From NCBI GenBank assembly GCA_024274695.1, contig JAJSAI010000001.1, forward strand, positions 1-6,375: a DNA stretch of 6,375 nucleotides. Reading direction: 5' to 3'. The number at the start of each line of letters is the position of its first letter. Position 1 is the first letter of the stretch. Shown here one piece after another: positions 2,648-6,375 of the stretch. The notes below the pieces were generated by a model. That model did not search any database. It saw nothing but the letters and a program-made list of their open reading frames with translations, and was not told the DNA's origin. This DNA is from an archaeon. GTDB lineage: Archaea > B1Sed10-29 > JAJSAI01. Made by a program: the position numbers and the translations under genes.

Positions 2648-3886
2648 ATGGCGTTACGCAACATCCTACTGGTGGCTGTAGTGGTGCTGGCTGTAGTGCT
2701 CGCCGGCCTTTATTTATCAGGTGCCTTTAACCTGCCTCCAGAGCACTATCCCCCTTATCACGCGCAGAACGCCAGCAAGCTCGTGCAGAAGCAGGCGGGG
2801 GCCAGCAACACTTTCGCTTTCGAACTGTACCAGGAGCTCGCGAAGCAGGAGCCTGATAATATTTTCTTTTCTCCTCAGTCCGCGCGCGTGGCCCTTGCGA
2901 TGGCCGCCGAAGGGGCTAGGGGGAACACCAGAACCGAAATGCTGAACGCCCTTCACCTCCCTTATAATGATTCCGTGCGCAGGCAGTACTTCAAGAACCT
3001 GATGCAGTCAATAACCTCTTCAGAAGAGTACAATTTTTCCGAGGCCAACGCAGTCTGGATAAAAGAAGGGTATCCTATTCTCCCGGATTATATCAGCACG
3101 GTTCGGGAGTACTATCTTTCCGAGGTGCACAACACAATTTCTCCTGATGAGATAAACGCGTGGGCAGAAGAGAAAACCCACGGCAGGATAAAAAGGATAG
3201 TCGGGCAGCTTCCTCCTCTGACCAGGATGGTGATAACGAACGCGGTGTACTTCAAGGGCAAGTGGGAGAAAGAGTTTAATGAGAGCCTAACCCGCCAGGA
3301 GCCGTTCACTCTCGCTTCAGGAGAGACCGTGAAGGCCTGGATGATGCAGACCTCTGGAAGCTTCCCCTACTACGAGAACGGCCGCCTGCAGGCCTTGGAG
3401 CTCCCGTACTCGGGAGGCAGGCTGAGCATGGTGATAGTACTTCCCAAGAATCCTGCGGACATTGACAAGCTGGGCGAGAGCGACTTTAACGAATGCTTGT
3501 GGAACTTGAAGAACACGAGCCTGGCAGAGGTGAAGATACCGAGGTTCAAGCTCGAGACAGAATACCACCTGCTCTCAGCGCTCATGAATCTTGGAATGAA
3601 GGACGCGTTCGATCCCGAGAAAGCGGACTTCAGCGGCATCACGCAGGCGGAGAAACTGTACATTTATGATGTTGCCCAGAAGGCGTTCGTGCAAGTGGAC
3701 GAGCAGGGGACCGAGGCCGCGGCGGTCACAGCAGTCACGGTGGTGGCCACGTGCGTTGGCTGCGGAGGAGGACAGCCCCTGCCCAGGTTCATCGCAGACC
3801 ACCCGTTCGTGTTCATGATCCTGGACAAGCAGACAGGAGAAATCCTGTTCATGGGCAGGGTTTCTGACCCGAGCAAAGAACAGTGA
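2648..3886 (+). CDS. Membrane-anchored serpin (serine/cysteine protease inhibitor)
   Basis: A 412-residue protein: an N-terminal hydrophobic anchor or signal (about residues 5-24, no lipobox cysteine), a short linker, and a full serpin domain (about 54-406). Serpins trap proteases by inserting their cleaved reactive-centre loop into a central sheet. Visible marks are NIFFSPQSARVALAMAAEGA (71-90, shutter region), NAVYFKGKW (198-206), VQVDEQGTEAAAVTAVT for the hinge, and the C-terminal ADHPFVFMILDKQTGEILFM (383-402). The hinge has E352 (P17), G354 (P15), T355 (P14) and then small residues, the inhibitory pattern. By spacing P1 would be T368, next to C369, but the CVGCGGG stretch that follows makes the exact bond uncertain. 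Five N-x-S sequons fit an extracellular domain. The natural target protease is unknown. Leaderless start likely. Confidence 0.93.
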   Translation: MALRNILLVAVVVLAVVLAGLYLSGAFNLPPEHYPPYHAQNASKLVQKQAGASNTFAFELYQELAKQEPDNIFFSPQSARVALAMAAEGARGNTRTEMLNALHLPYNDSVRRQYFKNLMQSITSSEEYNFSEANAVWIKEGYPILPDYISTVREYYLSEVHNTISPDEINAWAEEKTHGRIKRIVGQLPPLTRMVITNAVYFKGKWEKEFNESLTRQEPFTLASGETVKAWMMQTSGSFPYYENGRLQALELPYSGGRLSMVIVLPKNPADIDKLGESDFNECLWNLKNTSLAEVKIPRFKLETEYHLLSALMNLGMKDAFDPEKADFSGITQAEKLYIYDVAQKAFVQVDEQGTEAAAVTAVTVVATCVGCGGGQPLPRFIADHPFVFMILDKQTGEILFMGRVSDPSKEQ

Positions 3887-4653: not shown

Positions 4654-6375
4654 ATGTGCGGGATAATAGGGTACATTGGGAGCGAGAACGGAGTGGAACT
4701 CGTTTTCAAGGGTTTGATCCGTCTTGAGTACAGGGGCTACGATTCTGTCGGGATAGGGTTCAAGACTCCTGAAGGACTAAAAATAGTGAAGTCAGTGGGC
4801 AGGATTGAAAGCATTCCCGGAGAACCAGACATGCCCAGTCTCGAAAGAAAGGTGAAGAACCCCAACGGCTCCTTCAAGTACTATTCAAACATAGTCATAG
4901 GGCACACGCGCTGGGCCACTCACGGGGTCCCTTCAGAAAGGAATGCTCACCCTCACGTCAGCCAGACAGGCCGTTTTGCGATAGTGCACAACGGAATAAT
5001 CGAGAACTATTCCACGCTCAAGAGCCAGCTGCGCGAGAAAGGATTCCAGTTTGCTAGTGACACGGACAGCGAGGTCATCGCGCACTTGATAGAATATTTT
5101 TATGACGGCGACCTGGTTGAAGCGGTGAAAAAGACCCTATCCAAGCTTGAGGGCGCTTATTCCTTTCTCGTGATCTCAACCGACTAGGACGAGATCATCG
5201 GCGCGAAAATGGGCTCGTCAATGTGCCTAGGGATAGACAAAAACGGGTTCTTCATATCCTCTGACGAATCGCCTTTTGTTGACAGGACTAACAAGGTCAT
5301 TTACCTTGACGACGGCAACATGATAATCCTGAACAAAAAAGGTTATGTCATTCAAACCTTTGAAGGAGTGAACATAGAAAAAGAGATAAAGGAAGTCCCT
5401 TACGATATTGAATCAATCTCGAAGGCGGGATACCCTCATTTCATGCTGAAAGAAATTCACGAGCAGCCTCAGACAATACAAAACGCTTTCAGGTCAAGAA
5501 TAGACCACCTGGACACAATGCTCCTGGAAAACTTTCCCAGGCTGCCGAGAAACATAAACAACATAATCTACCTCGGGTGCGGGACAAGCTATTACGCGGC
5601 CATGATAGGAGCCCAGATAACTGAACAGGCGTGCGGCATAAGATCCTTTGCAGAGAACGCTTCAGAGTTCCTGTCAAGAGAACGAGCCGTGTTCCCCAAC
5701 GACGTTTACATCGCCATTTCGCAGTCCGGAGAAACCGCTGACACGAAAAACGCGCTTGAAAAAGTTAAGAAGAAGGGAGCGTACGTTGCGGGCATTGTTA
5801 ACGTGGTCGGATCAAGCATTGCGAGGATCGCGGGCAAGGGCATGTACCTCCACGCGGGCCCAGAAATAGGAGTAGCGTCAACAAAAGCGTTCACCTCACA
5901 GCTAGTCGCCCTTAACCTTTTTGCGACCATGCTCTCTGCAGACCCTATTCAAAAGAACAGGATAATAGAGGACATGAAAGAACTGCCCTCTCTCGCAGAG
6001 AAAACAATTCAGGAGACGGAGCCTAAGGTACAAAAGCTTGCTTCAGAGATCGCTAAGTACAAGAGCATGATGTACCTGGGGAGAGGAGTGAACTTTCCGG
6101 TCGCGCTTGAAGGAGCGCTGAAGATGAAAGAAGTCGCGTACATTCATGCGGAAGGATACTCTGCAGGAGAGCTAAAGCACGGGCCAATAGCTCTCATAGA
6201 CAAGAACCTTCTGACAGTCTTCATAATAACGGGAGACGCGTACGAAAAGTCCTTGAACAACCTCAAGGAAATCAAGGCAAGGGAAGGCAGGGTCCTGGTC
6301 GTGACAGACAGTCCGGGCAAGGTTGCTTCAGAGTTGTCAGAAGAAGACTTCCTGCTCGCGGTCCCGAAAACAAGA
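4654..6375 (+). CDS. glmS: Glucosamine-6-phosphate synthase with an in-frame TAG at codon 178 (3' end outside window)
   Basis: This makes glucosamine-6-phosphate from fructose-6-phosphate and glutamine, the first step towards UDP-GlcNAc. The glutaminase domain starts MCGIIGYIG, with nucleophile C2, HTRWATHG (R86, W87), HNGIIENY (N113) and DSEV (D138). Residues 53-79 hold about a dozen more residues than E. coli GlmS. After codon 177 there is a TAG, then 396 open codons in the same frame encode the sugar isomerase domains: CGTSYYAAM (309-317), SQSGETADT (356-364), EIGVASTKAF, and LEGALKMKE...ELKHGP with E486, K490, E493 and H509. All expected key residues in the covered part are intact, and about 40 C-terminal residues lie past the edge. 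The TAG falls in the variable loop aligning with the region around E. coli DSRHPD. Alternatives are recoding or readthrough, two split polypeptides (4654-5187 and from the ATG at 5209, which has no convincing SD), a recent null mutation, or a sequence error. Confidence 0.9.
5185..5187 (+). other. In-frame TAG codon in glmS
   Basis: The only stop in the 574 codons of the glmS reading frame in the window. It lies between the glutaminase strand ending VISTD and the next stretch DEIIGAKMGSS, at a loop position tolerant of many residues. A single base change would turn it into AAG (Lys), GAG (Glu), CAG (Gln), TGG (Trp) or TAC/TAT (Tyr). I see no obvious hairpin directly after it. Confidence 0.9.

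Follow-up and report, generated by a model that had tools for sequence, protein, structure and literature searches.

Why does an otherwise ordinary-looking archaeal glmS gene carry a single in-frame TAG: is the codon decoded, is the enzyme made as two proteins, is the gene newly inactivated, or is the base wrong in the draft? The window, a stretch of 6,375 bases that makes up the whole of contig C5 (G000:C5), is part of a Micrarchaeota draft genome of 825,026 bases in 32 contigs (91% complete). Its closest named relatives are the Micrarchaeota drafts AUK049 and AUK095, with 65-66% identity in GlmS; a search for a second genome of the same species found none. Genome-wide counts given below for the draft cover all contigs other than C1, C16, C27, and C31. 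The features of the locus are as follows.

4654..6375, + strand: glmS (glutamine--fructose-6-phosphate transaminase, isomerizing), single copy, 3′-truncated by the contig end; TIGR01135 and NF001484 match across the TAG
4654..5184, + strand: N-terminal part of the glutaminase, 177 codons ahead of the TAG; the GATase_6 match covers residues 79-201, so that the TAG falls inside the domain
5185..5187, + strand: in-frame TAG, codon 178; Asp in both closest relatives, and E or D in most of 109 homologues
5188..6375, + strand: remainder of the glutaminase domain and SIS isomerase domains, in an open and conserved frame

The glmS frame across the TAG

The gene starts at the ATG at 4654, reaches the TAG at codon 178, and then remains open for 396 codons up to position 6375, where the contig edge removes ~40 codons; the C-terminal DKPRNLAKSVTVE tail present in the relatives lies beyond this edge. 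With a residue placed at the TAG, the translation matches the GlmS family along its whole length (TIGR01135, 627 bits, cut-off 418, residues 2-569; NF001484, 634 bits). Its N-terminus, MCGIIGYIG, supplies the Cys nucleophile (MCGI) expected by TIGR01135, and Pfam domains GATase_6 and SIS are both detected, the latter with 163 bits in two stretches (best 300-426). Domain order, glutaminase then SIS, is that of bacterial and archaeal GlmS (TIGR01135, EC 2.6.1.16), with 66% identity to AUK049 GlmS; the gene differs from these by the in-frame TAG in the draft consensus and the lost 3′ end, whereas glmS is uninterrupted and encodes a single chain in both AUK049 and AUK095.

Constraint is similar on the two sides of the TAG. 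None of the 37 near-invariant columns before the TAG is broken, against 1 of the 50 after it (87 in all), the downstream half has a coding score of +85 over its 396 codons, and third codon positions carry most of the differences from the two closest relatives both before and after the TAG. Since the frame past the TAG is under the same constraint as the frame before it, glmS is, judging from the sequence, not an old pseudogene. The initial annotation had described a lone TAG in a frame conserved on both sides and had argued against long-standing decay, and both points hold up. The one broken column is Pro189, which is kept in 108 of 109 homologues and replaced here by Ser, next to a change of Leu190 to Met (codons 189-190, window positions 5218-5223). 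These two changes, ~33 bases past the TAG, may be additional base errors at this site.

Codon 178 itself is a variable acidic (E/D) loop position within the glutaminase domain (E in 57 and D in 24 of the 109 homologues), with Asp, encoded by GAT, in both closest relatives. TAG and a glutamate codon are one base apart, so a single substitution can explain the stop. In raising the decoding of UAG, the initial annotation had held that a sense codon in relatives would leave error or mutation as the explanation, and a sense codon is what both relatives carry.

A split enzyme, in which glutaminase and isomerase are made as two proteins with the second starting from the ATG at 5209, has next to no probability in our assessment. 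That ATG does lie 7 codons past the TAG and opens a frame of 389 codons, but no ribosome-binding motif is seen upstream of it, and GlmS is a single chain in both relatives. Furthermore, the cut would separate parts of one fold: the TAG is interior to the GATase_6 match, and the alignment to 1xff, a solved structure of the glutaminase domain, extends over residues 2-243. As the glutaminase fold spans the TAG, a functional split is unlikely, in line with the doubt already voiced in the initial annotation.

TAG as a terminator in the draft genome

Decoding of UAG, whether as pyrrolysine or, through an amber suppressor tRNA, as a different amino acid, would account for the intact motifs and frame past the glmS TAG, and two further in-frame TAGs occur in PolD DP2 and UbiA (listed below). 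However, the expected machinery was not found in this ~91% complete genome. The PylS N-terminal model (TIGR03912) has no match in the draft, and the C-terminal model (TIGR02367) stays below its cut-off of 178 bits, with two matches of 40 and 22 bits that correspond to SepRS and PheS. No CUA anticodon occurs among 44 tRNAs predicted by ARAGORN with introns allowed, nor among the 38 matches above the cut-off of the Rfam tRNA model, in an inventory from which a few isoacceptors (e.g., Tyr) are also missing. One weak additional Rfam match, at C21:30022-30088, has a GUG anticodon. CUA calls from a relaxed ARAGORN run appeared at the lowest threshold only and were discarded as noise.

TAG also terminates 111 of the 789 called genes that have a stop. 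AUK049 has homologues for 39 of the genes that end in TAG, and for 37 of these no homology extends beyond it, the exceptions being glmS and PolD DP2. Because only these two continue with homology, TAG is a working stop in this genome. Two other TAG genes that end early, uS2 (C32:48371) and a gene at C20:10866, were considered and have no continuation past the TAG. The pattern of an amber reassignment, with TAG rare as a terminator and in excess in frame over TAA and TGA, is not seen.

The locus thus resembles the pyrrolysine-encoding genes of methanogens and other archaea in its in-frame TAG and the open frame that follows, but differs from them in that neither PylS nor tRNA-Pyl was found, TAG is a routine terminator, TAA interrupts genes too, and relatives have an ordinary Asp or Glu at the aligned position. 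The literature search turned up no account of Micrarchaeota that decode pyrrolysine. An amber-specific mechanism predicts interruptions by TAG alone, so the equally frequent TAA stops in core genes point away from it, and we regard UAG decoding as very improbable. The searches for pylS and a suppressor tRNA proposed in the initial annotation have come back empty, and its option of recoding or suppression loses ground accordingly, with no pylS, no CUA tRNA, and TAG in ordinary use.

Interrupted core genes and the origin of the stop

The initial annotation had also proposed counting other genes with an in-frame TAG; a count of in-frame stops shows that TAA as well as TAG interrupts core genes. 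The cases found outside glmS are listed here.

C14:70042, - strand: PolD DP2, lone TAG, homology on both sides
C12:8363, - strand: UbiA, lone TAG, Pfam domain spanning the stop
C32:41355, + strand: uS13, lone TAA, Pfam domain spanning the stop
C13:7274, - strand: ValRS, lone TAA, AUK049 alignment across the stop
C9:5191, - strand: class I/II aminotransferase, lone TAA, Pfam domain spanning the stop
C4:10076, + strand: LdcA remnant, TGA, Pfam domain spanning the stop
C10, near 14514: elp3, split by a frameshift

LdcA appears to be a genuine gene remnant, and leaving it out gives six otherwise intact core genes including glmS, three each interrupted by TAG and TAA and none by TGA. A near-identical second copy exists in the genome for none of the interrupted genes. 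Two approaches contributed to the list. Stop-crossing alignments used the non-overlapping called genes of AUK049 as queries (queries from all open reading frames of the relative had matched mostly antisense shadow frames and were replaced), and across 73,920 aligned codons these crossed three lone stops in the draft, namely the TAGs of PolD DP2 and GlmS and the TAA of ValRS. The reverse comparison, over 81,101 aligned codons of AUK049 (G041), crossed none. A coding-potential screen followed by Pfam searches contributed UbiA, uS13, the class I/II aminotransferase, and the LdcA remnant; it was not exhaustive, with 30 of its 112 candidates picked by eye and seven taken to Pfam. The uS13 TAA ends a four-residue stretch (FSA and the stop) that is absent from solved homologues.

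Based on codon usage, random single substitutions are expected to yield stops in proportions of 0.43 TAG, 0.35 TAA, and 0.22 TGA, and the observed mix, the TGA of the LdcA remnant included, fits such single-base changes. With 0.041 nonsense changes per substitution, six nonsense changes translate into ~150 wrong bases, or ~2 in 10,000 of coding sequence, a plausible base-error rate for a draft. Scattered lone stops plus a frameshift in conserved single-copy genes, in the stop-codon mix expected from random substitutions, are what point errors in draft metagenome-assembled genomes would look like; our literature search, with the terms used, found no report of stop errors in such drafts. Since uS13, ValRS, and DP2 are genes that a cell would be expected to need, a consensus error is the simplest account, and we consider it likely that the glmS TAG is a base-level assembly error in an otherwise ordinary glmS.

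Two observations run against an assembly error. The contrast between zero stops in AUK049 and three here may reflect assembly quality or biology, and the original residues are of a similar kind: inferred as E at the DP2 stop and Q at the ValRS stop, with an E/D column in GlmS. The second clue is weakened because a single base change can turn E and Q codons into TAG or TAA, and E codons abound in this genome. The most novel biological reading would be that this micrarchaeon reads through a few UAG and UAA codons in GlmS, PolD DP2, UbiA, uS13, and ValRS, inserting, e.g., Glu or Gln via a near-cognate or undetected tRNA while both codons still serve as terminators. Such a double role of two codons, as stop and as sense, would be remarkable in an archaeon if true, and we give it only a very slim chance.

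If the nonsense mutation were real and recent, or an allele of a minority strain, it would inactivate glmS and leave glucosamine-6-phosphate to be obtained from a host or by another route. Such a mutation agrees with the TAG as it stands in the sequence, and if recent it would not yet be followed by decay; the P189S change close to the stop, at an almost invariant proline, also counts in its favor. However, uS13, DP2, and ValRS also carry lone stops and their loss is not expected; it is improbable that one genome of this small size recently underwent six such losses independently, and we consider this explanation unlikely, if still a serious one. From the range of options drawn up in the initial annotation, error or mutation is thus favored by the lone TAA and TAG stops in core genes, and neither recoding nor a split enzyme is supported.

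Under an assembly error, a substitution to TAG would have entered the draft consensus at the E/D loop position, and we infer that the draft, not the organism, has the wrong base. In the living cell, glmS would presumably be read without a stop to give a full GlmS which, by analogy with its family, would convert fructose-6-phosphate and glutamine to glucosamine-6-phosphate. As a caution for draft metagenome genomes, lone in-frame stops of all three codons should be counted genome-wide before recoding is proposed.

Serpin gene and cysteine tRNA routes

Upstream of glmS, the window encodes a serpin (2648-3886, + strand; PF00079, E 3.3e-110) with a hydrophobic N-terminal stretch that may serve as an anchor; no homologue was found in the examined part of AUK049. 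In the tRNA inventory, C22:26050-26159 and C32:10220-10324 look like tRNAs for Lys(UUU) and Gln(UUG) with an insert near the D-loop, and the Phe and Arg calls made by ARAGORN for these two loci are apparently miscalls. Contig C24 encodes both routes to Cys-tRNA(Cys), and each route has a GCA tRNA of its own adjoining one enzyme.

C24 7776-9398, + strand: SepRS
C24 15312-16415, - strand: SepCysS
C24 c16475-16548: tRNA-Cys (GCA), adjoining SepCysS, with G37
C24 19982-21352, - strand: CysRS
C24 c21385-21459: tRNA-Cys (GCA), adjoining CysRS, with A37

SepRS has already been mentioned for Micrarchaeota (PMC5424206), and the pairing of two tRNAs with SepCysS and CysRS looks worth closer attention.
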